Source: Clostridia bacterium
Lineage (GTDB): Bacteria; Bacillota; Clostridia; Oscillospirales; Feifaniaceae
Length of the DNA: 64,000 bases
Direction: 5' to 3'
Assembly: GCA_017517965.1 (NCBI GenBank)
Contig: JAFWXR010000050.1
Location: 1-64,000 of the forward strand
Each line of letters starts with the position of its first letter. The stretch's first letter is position 1. The notes under the pieces are model-generated. The model ran no database searches. It was not told where the DNA came from and was given only the letters and a program-made list of their open reading frames with translations. The position numbers and the translations under genes were made by a program. Below, one piece after another: positions 19,027-63,222 of the stretch.

Positions 19027-19218
19027 ATGGATACAATCGCATTGATCCTTACGATCATAGGTGCGCTCAACTGGGGTAGTATCGGTATATTCGGTTTTGA
19101 CATAGTCGGCTGGATATTCGGCGGACAGGCAGCTGTAATGAGCAGAATCATCTTCACATTGGTAGGCCTTGCCGGTCTGTGGTGCATTACACTTCTCTTC
19201 AGAAAGCATAACGATTAA
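19027..19218 (+). CDS. DUF378 small membrane protein
   Basis: A 63-residue protein with two predicted membrane helices and the family signature IIGALNWGSIGIFGFDIV followed by SRIIFTLVGLAGLW. The function of DUF378 proteins is unknown. The ATG at 19027 with GGAGAAAGG upstream gives the family-standard length; a longer in-frame reading from 18952 would run back through the preceding terminator and is rejected. It stands alone between two terminators, so it is probably monocistronic. Confidence 0.9.
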   Translation: MDTIALILTIIGALNWGSIGIFGFDIVGWIFGGQAAVMSRIIFTLVGLAGLWCITLLFRKHND

Positions 19219-19221
19219 AGA

Positions 19222-19252
19222 AAAGAGCAGTTCATTACGAACTGCTCTTTTT
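19222..19252. terminator. Bidirectional intrinsic terminator
   Basis: AAAGAGCAGTTC (19222-19233) and its complement (19239-19250) with a 5-nt loop and T-runs on both strands, between the convergent DUF378 and FIVAR genes. The stem core recurs at 24573-24605. Confidence 0.9.
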
Positions 19253-19254
19253 AT

Positions 19255-21972
19255 TTAGAAATTAACCGTAACATGTCTTGTTACTTTTTCTGCATCGTAT
19301 GCCGTTGCATCAAAATATAAATCAAATTCAACGGGCTCGTCACACGCCATTATTCTCCAGCTTCTCGCACCCATCTTTTTGATAATATCGTTGTTTACGC
19401 TTGCACTGAGGCTTTCGGAATAATATCTTCCAAAGTTTAAGTATACGTTTGATACACTTGCATTAGCAGTTACCGTGATATTGTCACCGTCTACCTCATA
19501 CGTGCATCTCAGTGACGTATCAAGAACTGCTGTGTATTCCGTTGCATCTGCAAATATTACAGTAACGCCGTAGGTTTCAACAGTTTCACCGTTTGCATTT
19601 TTTACGTTTACCGTAACAGTACCTTCGTCATATACGGGATTATAAAATCTTACAGCGCTTCCCGATATCACGTATCTGCCAAGAAGGTTTCTTGATACGT
19701 TTTCTACCTCAACGTAACCGCCGTCTATTTCCGTAGTGTCAAACAGAACGTATGCAGTTGCCGCACCTGAAGTTACCGTGATATTATTGCCTGTCTGTGC
19801 CAGTCTTGCATAAGTTGCATACCTTATCGCATTGCCAAAATCTGCAACAAGCACGAATTCCGTTACTGCACCGTCTGCCGCTGTTATCGTCATAGGTACG
19901 TTTACGTTCTTCATACCGGGGTTTGTTACCGTTATTATACCACTTGCCATACTTGCGTTGGCATTCGTTCCAACCATAGCAACCGTTGCACCCTCAGGCA
20001 GATTGCCGAGGCGAACTTTCATTGAAGAAGTACCTGCCGTAGTTGCCGTAAGCACCAAATTGCCGTCAACAACTTTTGTCGTACATCTCAGTCTGTAATT
20101 TACAAGACTGTCGGAAACTTTTATCACACCGGGAATTTCAAGACTTGCAACCGCATCTTCAATTGCCTTTGCATAAGCATCAACCGTTGCCTGCTTATCT
20201 ATCGTAAGGTCGTATACAACTGCATTCACCGCATCCGTTACCGCCTGTGCCGTTTCAGCCGTATAAATTGTAAGGTCTGCAGGCACCTTCGCAAGTGCTT
20301 CTTCTACTGCTGTATAGTCAGCCGGTTTGTACTGAAGATTAGAAACGGCATCTTCAATCGCTGTTGCAAAACCATCAACTTTAGTCTGCTGATCTGCCTT
20401 AAGGTCATATATAACCTCATCGACTGCATTTAAGACGTGCAGTGCACTTTCGTCCGTATACTTTGAAAGGTCGGAAGGCACTTTTGCAAGTGCTTCTTCG
20501 ACTGCTGTGTAATCCGCCGGAACGTCATGCGGACGAAGCATCAACCGAGGAAATATTAACACTTCTTTTAACGTACCTTCATTGTCGGGATTTTTCGCTT
20601 CACCGACAGCAAACGTTGTATAAGCAAAGATATAATAAATATCGTTATCAAAATCTGATAATTCGATTGAACCGCCTGCGGTAATCTCACTTGCACTCAC
20701 CGGCTGGAAAAGGCCCGAATAACCGTCAACATCCTCCAGTTTGCTTGAAATTGTTATAAACTTCGTTTCATCACATTTGCGTTGTGTTGACGTAGATCCA
20801 ATTTGAATTGCTCCGTCACTTGCAGAATCGTTGTAAACGGGTCTACCCTCTTTATCTATCGTCCAACCTGCAGGAACGGGGTTACTAAAAGATATTACGT
20901 TGCGCACCGTTGCATAGTCTCCACGCAAATTTGTCGCAATTCCATATAAAAGATCATCATACGTAAGATAGTCAATGGTGATATACTCGTTACACACTTC
21001 AACTTTGCCGTTTCCTTCAATTTGCAGATATGCAAACTGATCAATTGTGAGACCTGTTAAGTCTAGCTCATCAAACTCTATCACAGGCAATTTTTCAGGA
21101 AGAAAGTCTTCTGTGTAATATGTTTGCGATTGTCCGTCAACGAGCATTTTAATTTCTACTCTATACGTAGGCTTACCGTTTTTTTCTTTTTCACCCGCAA
21201 CTGTTGCATAACTTGTTATGACACCAAAAACTTTCTGTCCGGGAAATTCAGGCATCTCAAGTACAATCATCGCCACAATTACATCATCTCTGTAAACAAG
21301 CAACATTTTTCCGCGGTTTGCAAATTCAGGGATATCAGATGAATTATAGTAAGCAGTTTCAAGTTCACCGTCTGCATTTACTTCATAGTACATACCTACA
21401 AAGTCATCTGCAACGTCGGTTAATAATCCCACTACTCTGTATCCATCATATGATATATAGAATCCGTTTTCTTTGCTGTAACAGAGGTTGTTTTCATAAA
21501 TTTCTGTCTGCCAATCACTTGTACTGTTGTGAGGAGAGTACGTTCCGATTTCTTCAAGAGCAACAACCCTGATTACCTGACCCGAGGTTTCATCAACTTC
21601 ATAATAGATGTAATTACCGACTATTGTGTAATCGGAAACGATATCATATGTATAATCAAAATAAATCTCGCCCGAATCAGAATTATCAATAAATTTTGCA
21701 GCCGAGCCTTCCCATACACAGGCAACCTCGTCTCCGACCAATGAATTAACTGTTGTATCGATTGTAAGTTCTTCCAACGTACCGTCAAGTTTAGCAACCG
21801 TTATTGTAGCCTCGACATTATTCCCAAATCTGTCACAATTGTCATAAGCCTCAATAACTTTACCTATACTTAGCGGATATCCTGTGTCCGACGTATATGC
21901 TGTTGCCAACATCGGAACCGTTGAAAACATCATAATAACTGCGAGTAGTAATGAAATGATCCTTTTTTTCAT
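19255..21972 (-). CDS. Secreted multi-domain protein with two FIVAR repeats
   Basis: A 905-residue exported protein. The true start is the ATG at 21972, with GGAGG 7 nt upstream and a clear signal peptide (MKKRIISLLLAVIMMFSTVP, cut near ATAYT). Residues about 27-480 form a unique region of beta-rich sequence. Two consecutive ~65-residue FIVAR-type helical repeats follow at about 484-613 (both open with ADYTAVEEALAKVP). The C-terminal ~290 residues look like two or three beta-sandwich domains and end without a sortase signal or S-layer homology domain. It is probably a surface or released protein; ligand unknown. Its expression is likely controlled by the leader RNA upstream. Confidence 0.8.
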   Translation of the reverse strand: MKKRIISLLLAVIMMFSTVPMLATAYTSDTGYPLSIGKVIEAYDNCDRFGNNVEATITVAKLDGTLEELTIDTTVNSLVGDEVACVWEGSAAKFIDNSDSGEIYFDYTYDIVSDYTIVGNYIYYEVDETSGQVIRVVALEEIGTYSPHNSTSDWQTEIYENNLCYSKENGFYISYDGYRVVGLLTDVADDFVGMYYEVNADGELETAYYNSSDIPEFANRGKMLLVYRDDVIVAMIVLEMPEFPGQKVFGVITSYATVAGEKEKNGKPTYRVEIKMLVDGQSQTYYTEDFLPEKLPVIEFDELDLTGLTIDQFAYLQIEGNGKVEVCNEYITIDYLTYDDLLYGIATNLRGDYATVRNVISFSNPVPAGWTIDKEGRPVYNDSASDGAIQIGSTSTQRKCDETKFITISSKLEDVDGYSGLFQPVSASEITAGGSIELSDFDNDIYYIFAYTTFAVGEAKNPDNEGTLKEVLIFPRLMLRPHDVPADYTAVEEALAKVPSDLSKYTDESALHVLNAVDEVIYDLKADQQTKVDGFATAIEDAVSNLQYKPADYTAVEEALAKVPADLTIYTAETAQAVTDAVNAVVYDLTIDKQATVDAYAKAIEDAVASLEIPGVIKVSDSLVNYRLRCTTKVVDGNLVLTATTAGTSSMKVRLGNLPEGATVAMVGTNANASMASGIITVTNPGMKNVNVPMTITAADGAVTEFVLVADFGNAIRYATYARLAQTGNNITVTSGAATAYVLFDTTEIDGGYVEVENVSRNLLGRYVISGSAVRFYNPVYDEGTVTVNVKNANGETVETYGVTVIFADATEYTAVLDTSLRCTYEVDGDNITVTANASVSNVYLNFGRYYSESLSASVNNDIIKKMGARSWRIMACDEPVEFDLYFDATAYDAEKVTRHVTVNF

Positions 21973-21989
21973 AATTTTGTCCTCCCACG

Positions 21990-22022
21990 GAATAAAAAAT
22001 GCGTCAGCCGAAGCCGACGCAT
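21990..22022 (-). terminator. Intrinsic terminator inside the 5' leader, directly before the ribosome binding site
   Basis: On the minus strand a 10-bp stem (arms 22013-22022 and 21999-22008, one G-U pair) closes on a TTCG tetraloop and is followed by six T residues. The Shine-Dalgarno GGGAGG begins only a few bases later, so this can stop transcription before the FIVAR gene. Confidence 0.85.
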
Positions 22023-22031
22023 CCAAAACGC

Positions 22032-22139
22032 AAGCTTCGTCCATGTTGCTACACATCTCACACCAAACCAAGTATGCAGACAAAGCTTACATTTTTGGAA
22101 ATGTAAACTCAGTTTGGTAAATATTAAGATATGTAGCAA
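22032..22139 (-). ncRNA. Structured, pseudoknotted leader RNA (candidate riboswitch) of the FIVAR gene
   Basis: Read on the minus strand. P1: 22127-22139 with 22046-22058, 13 bp. P2: 22108-22118 with 22062-22072, 11 bp including two G-U pairs. P3: 22099-22106 with 22087-22094, 8 bp closed by CCAA. The strand after P3 (22079-22086, GCTTTGTC) can pair with 22034-22041 (GACGAAGC) just outside P1, giving an 8-bp pseudoknot. A terminator follows immediately, and the promoter places the transcript start at about 22142, at the base of P1. It does not match the riboswitch classes I can recall (c-di-GMP I/II, T-box, SAM, THF, lysine, glycine, preQ1). Fold by inspection; ligand unknown. Confidence 0.65.
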
Positions 22140-22148
22140 TTCCATTAA

Positions 22149-22178
22149 ATCATAAACAGGGAAAAAAGTCCAGTACAA
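22149..22178 (-). promoter_or_regulatory. Promoter of the leader RNA / FIVAR gene
   Basis: TTGTAC (22173-22178) and TATGAT (22149-22154) on the minus strand, 18 nt apart. The predicted start, about 22142, falls 3 nt before the P1 helix of the leader. Confidence 0.6.
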
Positions 22179-23508: not shown

Positions 23509-24591
23509 ATGAATATTTGTGCAATCATTTGTGAATATAATCCGTTTCACGAGGGTCACCGCTTCCAGATTGAAACGGCACGCCGTGAAACAGACGCATC
23601 TCACATCGTCTGTATAATGAGCGGAAACTACGTGCAGAGAGGTGACGTTGCCGTATACGATAAGTGGTACCGTGCCGAGTGTGCAATCAAAGGCGGTGCC
23701 GACCTCGTTATAGAGTTACCTACCCCCTATGTTCTGACATCTGCCGAGTTTTTTGCAAAAAGCGGTGTTTTTCTCGCAAAGCAGATGGGTGCGAAAACGC
23801 TTTCTTTCGGTAGCGAATGCGGTGATATCGAGGCTTTAACAAAGGTTGCTTCATCCCTCGCCCTGCCTGATACACAGGAGAAAATACGTAACTTTTTAAA
23901 CGAAGGTCTTTCTTATCCGTCAGCCGTTTCAAAGGCGACTGAAAGTTCTCTTTTAGATGAGCCAAATAATCTGCTTGGGATAGAATACATCAAAGCAGAC
24001 CCGACACTTAATTTTCACACTGTTAAAAGAACGTTTGCCCACGATGAAGGCATCGGCTGTGCATCGGACATACGAAAAAAAATATACTCAGGCGAAATAA
24101 AATCTGACAGCACACCGCATTTTACCGAATATGCCGAGAAGGCTATACTTGCAACACTCAGGAAAATGACGGTTGACGAATTAGCAGAAATCAGCGGTTG
24201 TTCTGAAGGTCTTGAAAACAGGCTTAAAAACGCTTTGACCGATTCGTGTAATATAGAAACACTCTGTGAAACGACCAAATCGAAGCGTTATCCCTTAAGT
24301 CGTATCAGACGCTATATTATGTGTGCATTTTTGGGCATAAAAAAAGGCTTTCCCGAAAACCCGCCCTATGCAAGAATACTTGCTTTTAACGACAAAGGCA
24401 GAGAGATTATTTCGTACGCAAAGGACGTAGCAGATATACCCATAATAACAAAAGTATCCGACGGTATTTCAGACGTTTTCAATGCAGAATGTACAGCAAC
24501 CGACTTATATACCCTCTTTTCAAAAGAGGTATCACCCTGCGGTCTTGAATTTAAAAAATCACCAATATATATAAAAAAAGAGCAGTTATAA
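23509..24591 (+). CDS. tmcAL: tRNA(Met) cytidine acetate ligase TmcAL (YlbM)
   Basis: A 360-residue protein with a nucleotidyltransferase-like N-terminus: CAIICEYNPFHEGHRFQIETA (HxGH-type motif) and MSGNYVQRGDVAVYDKWYRA. TmcAL activates acetate with ATP and transfers it to the wobble cytidine (ac4C34) of elongator tRNA-Met. It is about 50 residues shorter than B. subtilis YlbM, the difference being at the C-terminus. The last codons lie in the stem of the shared terminator. GAGGT precedes the ATG. Being divergent to ackA, which makes acetate, is metabolically suggestive. Confidence 0.9.
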   Translation: MNICAIICEYNPFHEGHRFQIETARRETDASHIVCIMSGNYVQRGDVAVYDKWYRAECAIKGGADLVIELPTPYVLTSAEFFAKSGVFLAKQMGAKTLSFGSECGDIEALTKVASSLALPDTQEKIRNFLNEGLSYPSAVSKATESSLLDEPNNLLGIEYIKADPTLNFHTVKRTFAHDEGIGCASDIRKKIYSGEIKSDSTPHFTEYAEKAILATLRKMTVDELAEISGCSEGLENRLKNALTDSCNIETLCETTKSKRYPLSRIRRYIMCAFLGIKKGFPENPPYARILAFNDKGREIISYAKDVADIPIITKVSDGISDVFNAECTATDLYTLFSKEVSPCGLEFKKSPIYIKKEQL

Positions 24592-24605
24592 ACTGCTCTT
24601 TTTTT
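24573..24605. terminator. Bidirectional terminator overlapping the 3' end of tmcAL
   Basis: AAAAAGAGCAGTT (24575-24587) and its complement (24591-24603) with a 3-nt loop and long A/T tails; it serves both tmcAL and the convergent upp. The tmcAL stop (24589-24591) lies in the loop. Confidence 0.9.
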
Positions 24606-25233
24606 ATTTTGTACCGAAAATTCTGTCACCGGCATCGCCGAGACCGGGCACGATATATGCATGATCATTCAACTTTTCGTCAAGTGCCGCACAGAATATA
24701 TCAACGTCGGGATGATCTGTAAGAATTCTGTCAACACCCTCCTGCGCTGCAATGATATTCATCATTTTGATGCTTCTGGGCTTGTACTCTTTAATCATTT
24801 CAATAGCAGATGATGCACTAACACCCGTTGCAAGCATCGGGTCAAGCACAAATACGTCCCTGTCCTGAATATCGGGCGGCATCTTGCAGTAATACTTAAC
24901 TGCTTCAAGCGTCACAGGGTCTCTGTAAAGTCCTATATGTCCTACTTTTGCCGACGGAACGAGACTGAGCACACCGTCAACCATACCGAGACCTGCACGT
25001 AAAATGGGAACTATGGCAAATTTCTTTCCTTTGAGCACCTTGCACTTTGCCGTGCATATAGGCGTTTCAACTTCAACTTCCGTAAGCGGCAGTTCTTTCG
25101 TCGCCTCATAACATACGAGCATTGCAATCTCGCTTATACACTCACGAAAATCCTTCGTACCCGTGTCCTTATTTCTGATAATTGAAAGTTTGTGCTGGAT
25201 AAGAGGATGATCTACAACTGTAAAATGTCCCAT
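24604..25233 (-). CDS. upp: Uracil phosphoribosyltransferase
   Basis: A 209-residue PRTase of standard length. The PRPP-binding loop is [19 protein letters not shown] and the uracil-binding C-terminus is [15 protein letters not shown]. It salvages uracil to UMP. AAGGAG precedes the ATG at 25233. It is the last gene of the fhs-tsaE-tsaB-rpiB-upp cluster, 18 bp after rpiB, and ends at a bidirectional terminator. Confidence 0.97.
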
Positions 25234-63087: not shown

Positions 63088-63222
63088 CCGAAGACATAAG
63101 AAAATGCACCTTCTTAAACAGGAAGGTGCATTAAAATCACATAGTAATTCTCACATCTTCCTCGGCAGGATATTTAAACCAAACGGTACCTGCTGTCTTC
63201 GGAGACGGACTTAATCCGTCAG
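63088..63222 (-). ncRNA. L10 leader RNA
   Basis: The transcribed leader of rplJ, starting near 63227. On the minus strand: hairpin 63204-63220 (6 bp), a 9-bp long-range helix between 63194-63202 (CCGAAGACA) and 63088-63096, the segment AGCAGGTACC with TCCTGCCGAGGA typical of the L10-binding region, and a hairpin 63103-63132 (11 bp) followed by TTTTC. L10 or L10-L12 binding to this element represses rplJ-rplL. Family identity rests on position and sequence character. Confidence 0.8.

Follow-up and report, generated by a model that had tools for sequence, protein, structure and literature searches.

The leader RNA ahead of a large surface-protein gene in the window (the whole stretch of Clostridia bacterium DNA analysed here, 64,000 nucleotides) belongs, as a divergent short form, to a conserved family of leader RNAs. 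It is highly probable, in our judgement, that this is an unclassified Clostridia family of cis-acting transcription-attenuation RNAs and that the window leader works as the pseudoknot switch proposed below; there are no expression or probing data. As a prediction from sequence, there is good support for reading the element as a regulatory leader that has switch logic, a statement that does not cover a riboswitch in the strict sense of direct ligand binding. Transcription-attenuating leaders as such are a known kind of device; what appears to be new is this family, with its architecture. An RNA regulator found in about a sixth of the sampled Clostridia genomes, often in several copies, thus appears to be uncatalogued in Rfam.

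Parts and fold of the window leader

Table 1. Features of the leader in the window, in order of transcription (all on the minus strand)
Feature	Positions	Sequence	Details	Basis
-10 box	22149..22154 (-)	TATGAT	predicted transcription start ~22142, ~7 nt further	sequence
P1, 5' strand	22127..22139 (-)		13 pairs, with 22046..22058
P1, 3' strand	22046..22058 (-)			fold and covariation in short forms
P2, 5' strand	22108..22118 (-)	ACCAAACUGAG	11 pairs	sequence and fold
P2, 3' strand	22062..22072 (-)			sequence and fold
Local hairpin (P3 of the preliminary description)	22086..22107 (-)		22107-22099 with 22094-22086
Pseudoknot, 5' strand	22079..22098 (-)	CCAAAAAUGUAAGCUUUGUC	A-rich, apical loop
Pseudoknot, 3' strand	22023..22041 (-)	GACGAAGCUUGCGUUUUGG	directly behind P1
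Antiterminator, 5' strand	22029..22043 (-)	UGGACGAAGCUUGCG	overlaps pseudoknot 3' strand; -14.3 kcal/mol
Antiterminator, 3' strand	22005..22020 (-)		terminator 5' arm, loop and start of 3' arm
Intrinsic terminator	21994..22023 (-)		cUUCGg hairpin 22023-21998, U-tract to 21994
Shine-Dalgarno	21981..21986 (-)	GGGAGG	ATG at 21972	sequence
Downstream gene	19255..21972 (-)		905-aa protein, signal peptide

The window leader folds to a minimum free energy of -66.7 kcal/mol; 200 shuffles gave -40.4 +/- 4.0 kcal/mol (z -6.6), and not one of them folded as well. This bears out the preliminary description, in which so many long helices were not expected by chance, and P1 (13 bp), P2 (11 bp) and P3 all lie where it had placed them. 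The 13 pairs of P1 amount to -20.6 kcal/mol, and all swaps of its strands with those of relatives are weaker. The pseudoknot had been described as 8 bp between 22086-22079 and 22041-22034, extendable to 10; these strands do pair, but the helix is far longer, joining 22098-22079 to 22041-22023 by 17 contiguous pairs, one mismatch and two more pairs (-23.2 kcal/mol as a duplex). With the 3' strands of relatives in place of its own partner, the window 5' strand reaches -18.3 kcal/mol at best. The cUUCGg terminator leading into the Shine-Dalgarno had been recognised correctly, and the antiterminator helix (22043-22029 with 22020-22005) had been missed. As to the suggestion that the leader has its own promoter, the -10 box is plausible; the promoter is absent from the list produced by a generic promoter scan, but relatives carry TATAAT-like boxes at equal spacing from P1. 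No Pfam family above cut-off was found in the 905-aa protein, so the label 'FIVAR' that had been attached to it is unsupported.

A leader family of the Clostridia

Homologues of the surface protein, as a route to related leaders, yielded no useful leader outside the window's own genome. BLAST of the leader against 59 related genomes gave two weak matches (E 0.005), covering its last 49 nt, which are the terminator module; they lie in genomes of two other families and both represent one conserved element just upstream of start codons. These first two relatives resembled inverted repeats flanking a promoter-like box, which might suggest a mobile or invertible DNA element whose recombination arms surround a promoter. 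That explanation is scarcely tenable: the repeats are P1, which covaries pair by pair, the true promoter is located beyond them, the middle shows the conservation of an RNA, and BLAST of the window's own genome found no second copy of the window element.

More of the leader-RNA family was found with a covariance model of the 3' module (R1), which matched 102 of 394 genomes of the order; as its training set was partly window sequence, it was used for discovery only. An exact pattern scan of GTDB genomes gave at least 80 named loci. Among the matches listed, the sources are Oscillospiraceae and other Clostridia that are uncultured and live for the most part in ruminant guts, together with Pumilibacter intestinalis. 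The long form is laid out as a promoter, GCCAAAC opening P1, about 170 nt, then UUUGGCGACWAUCGGRGUUUGCGUUUUU, a terminator and, usually, a Shine-Dalgarno. A second covariance model (R2), trained on 68 long forms that all come from genomes other than the window's, also brought out a short form of about 130 nt. The inner stems (P2 region) are present in relatives, with a less certain alignment.

Membership of the window leader is supported by two further profiles. An nhmmer profile of 18 short forms, none from the window's own genome, matched 22097-21991 at 44.3 bits (E 5.1e-13), its next-best match in the 64 kb window scoring 3.7 bits, and a separately built 3'-module profile, drawn from 78 long forms, reached 29.6 bits (E 3.3e-8) in the window, where 30 shuffled windows gave no more than 10.7 bits. 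R2 sees this divergent short-form query only weakly (14.3 bits, E 0.01) and in the wrong register, because the member is short and the sequence of its P1 has been fully replaced; replaced as it is, this P1 is fully paired. The window leader has the enclosing P1, the long pseudoknot, the antiterminator and the homology to outside members that mark the family.

This homology to RNAs with a conserved pseudoknot, terminator and antiterminator makes it very unlikely that the leader is merely a 5' stem-loop stabilising the surface-protein mRNA, with a terminator-like hairpin behind it by chance. What speaks for such a stem-loop is a paralogue, C56:73016, which keeps just the promoter and the hairpin, so that the stem is dispensable there. 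The leader of this paralogous surface gene (L052:9016-9082; G000 C56:73016-73082, minus strand) retains the promoter region and the terminator module, lacks P1, P2 and the pseudoknot 5' strand, and has a weakened terminator stem; its most natural reading is that of a leader whose control has been lost. The preliminary description had named homologous leaders without the pairings as a finding that would refute it, and this same-genome paralogue, which looks truncated, is the sole case seen.

At E 0.001, R2 matches 64 of the 391 sampled genomes of the class Clostridia, about a sixth. Outside the class there was no R2 match at E 0.0001 in a phylum sample of 398, where the window's own genome alone matched. 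Ten member-rich genomes that were rescanned hold 3-9 copies each, and the window's genome has two canonical copies, at C44:20106-20287 and C43:108795-108924. Tandem leader copies less than 1 kb apart occur in two genomes (G642 C59:10513 and 11051; G498 C29:52248 and 53131). As for mobile carriage, there was no exact match among viral contigs and none in plasmids; one member lies on an unverified, phage-labelled faecal scaffold (MT835503).

Covariation and the proposed switch

Compensatory changes, which the preliminary description had said would support its structure, are seen across relatives in P1, the pseudoknot and the terminator, and also in the antiterminator. P1 is paired in 96.3% of cells in 23 short forms (window included), with two-sided change in 12 of 13 pairs, and in 90.5% of cells in 68 long forms, with two-sided change in 8 of 16; controls in which the whole structure was slid along the short forms reached at most 53%. 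Swapping strands among members gave z -9.1 (short forms) and -16.5 (long forms) for P1, z -5.2 and -3.5 for the pseudoknot, and z -3.7 and -4.5 for the local hairpin, whose competition with the pseudoknot for the 5' strand is conserved. In permutations of the pseudoknot, the native arrangement beat all 2000 in the short forms, and 1 of 2000 was as good in the long forms. The 68 long forms were chosen by an exact 3' motif, so the pseudoknot could show almost only one-sided change there.

The 3' strand of the pseudoknot also fits the 5' arm and loop of the terminator (strand swapping, z -3.3 in short and -6.4 in long forms). Here CWAUCGGAG pairs with CUUCGGUWG, which covers the loop of the terminator and the beginning of the 3' arm. 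In 49 members this antiterminator reaches 94.7% pairing and has 25 two-sided cells, where shuffled sets have 4.7; slid controls pair at 48% or less. One member (L269) has an additional base in both strands and retains 11 pairs. The W position varies together with its partner, and since the two W/X sequence types may each be one lineage we do not take the p-value for this position at face value. The terminator is paired in 98.1% of cells in relatives and covaries; its loop occurs as CUUCGG, CUCCGG, CUACGG or CUGCGG. That the loop is conserved just as a UNCG tetraloop is partly true, but the antiterminator count and the permutations show extra pairing. Pairing of the A-rich strand with the 3' arm of the terminator was also considered and is unsupported (z -0.1 and -0.9).

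We propose that transcription starts just ahead of P1 and that P1 and the inner stems would fold first. The A-rich strand, 22098-22079, would then either stay in the local hairpin or pair with 22041-22023 to form the pseudoknot of about 17 pairs. With the pseudoknot formed, its 3' strand would be occupied, the terminator could fold and transcription would stop before the Shine-Dalgarno (OFF); with the pseudoknot open, the same 3' strand could pair with the terminator loop and arms as the antiterminator, and the surface-protein gene would be transcribed (ON). This assignment of OFF and ON follows from the strand shared by pseudoknot and antiterminator and from the loop and arms shared by antiterminator and terminator. 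Judged by sequence and covariation, the structures are mutually exclusive by position; their interconversion in cells is inferred. On the same basis the leader shows one mark of riboswitches in the strict sense, a terminator and an antiterminator that exclude each other and are coupled to a folded domain upstream of them. What tips the balance is inferred to be a signal, most probably a small ligand that the folded domain binds; the identity of this ligand and the direction in which it acts are unknown. In most members antiterminator and terminator have similar predicted energies. For the window leader the prediction makes the terminator (-18) more stable than the antiterminator (-14), so that ON would need help or kinetics. 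Covariation alone is enough to read out the switch logic, and mutational tests are therefore well defined.

The preliminary description could assign the leader to no known class and had named a strong Rfam match as a finding that would refute it. Rfam 15 gives none: there is no match in the window leader by gathering threshold or E-value, and no family at the gathering cut-off over the element in 37 relatives. Nor was a description of the family found in the literature searched. Riboswitches of the fluoride and preQ1-I type terminate transcription and share a pseudoknot strand with the expression platform. The leader family is like them in that pseudoknot and terminator/antiterminator are mutually exclusive and in that the RNA lies between promoter and Shine-Dalgarno; unlike theirs, its pseudoknot is 13-17 pairs long, bridges all of P1 and, once formed, leaves the terminator unoccupied. 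Riboswitches for c-di-GMP (GEMM-I, GEMM-II) occur in several copies per genome ahead of diverse genes for surface or secreted proteins. Their likeness to the leader family is in gene context only, whereas the architecture and conserved letters differ and the leader family has no Rfam match. The raiA motif, or ModT RNA, is in Rfam and was thus covered by the Rfam scan, in which the leader family did not match it. It is likewise a complex structured RNA common in Bacillota (PMC11706538). Fremin and Bhatt reported 3161 uncurated candidate RNAs of human microbiomes (PMC8040213), a similar source, and the leader family could be one of these, still unnamed.

Downstream genes and the controlling signal

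Of 73 long-form members, 55 have an ORF with its Shine-Dalgarno no more than 80 nt behind the terminator, mostly 15-34 nt away. The remaining quarter or so, without such a close ORF and Shine-Dalgarno, could include copies that act differently. Together with the leader's own promoter and strong terminator, these copies are what can be said for a free-standing, trans-acting small RNA whose downstream gene is there by coincidence or is reached by read-through. We consider this improbable in view of the 55 members with a close gene, of the conserved antiterminator, which a plain small RNA would not need, and of the several copies that precede unrelated genes within one genome.

The genes behind the leaders are diverse. 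A hydrophobic N-terminal stretch was scored, by a crude rule, in 38 of 71 first ORFs. Pfam assigned downstream proteins to BspA-type leucine-rich repeats, dockerin, VWA, AMP-binding enzymes, glycosyltransferase and acyltransferase, and also to an SPFH protein, an AbrB/MazE-like regulator and an EcoRI-type methylase. Such diversity suggests a general signal. The family may be a new and widespread riboswitch class of gut Clostridia that responds to a general signal, which could be a second messenger or a stress metabolite. Its regulon would comprise surface proteins, lipoproteins, DNA modification and regulators, controlled by a pseudoknot that either captures the strand needed for the antiterminator or sets it free. 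To us this is an evenly balanced proposition.

The same switch may instead be governed by a protein or a trans-acting RNA that binds the leader, forming a multi-gene attenuator regulon as with antiterminator proteins, an alternative that we regard as possible, if rather doubtful. The downstream genes have no pathway in common, which makes a gene-specific metabolite unlikely, and the conserved unpaired letters could be protein contacts. An elaborate pseudoknotted domain with switch logic is, on the other hand, typical of aptamers, and second-messenger riboswitches likewise control diverse genes; no candidate gene for a controlling protein was found, in the absence of a systematic search. The diversity of the genes points to a common signal in bacteria that are mostly uncultured, and their signalling would become accessible once the ligand is identified. 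The models built here could annotate hundreds of genes.

Two members, L093 (G000 C44:20106-20287) and L274:338-496 (on MT835503), precede genes resembling an EcoRI-type adenine methylase, judged by similarity to the L168 protein assigned by Pfam. On the MT835503 scaffold a further ORF behind it encodes 369 aa with an end that looks HNH-like by eye. A link of these two contexts to restriction-modification is possible.

Four other large predicted proteins of the window's genome (G000) share, at 59-82% identity, the C-terminal 290-400 residues of the surface protein encoded in the window (C57:530-1396, C57:6195-7307, C56:69780-70985 and C43:234453-235562); this module has no Pfam family. Short palindromic, REP-like repeats lie at 19216-19252 and 24574-24612 of the window and in intergenic regions of G000 C21, C34 and C43, and they match, in both orientations, a stretch upstream of the paralogue leader. 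Among other RNAs, Gut-1 RNA (RF01706) is found close to two members (L090:1860-1936 and L070:616-684, the latter below the gathering score), and the window has an ordinary L10 ribosomal leader (RF00557) at 63091-63220.
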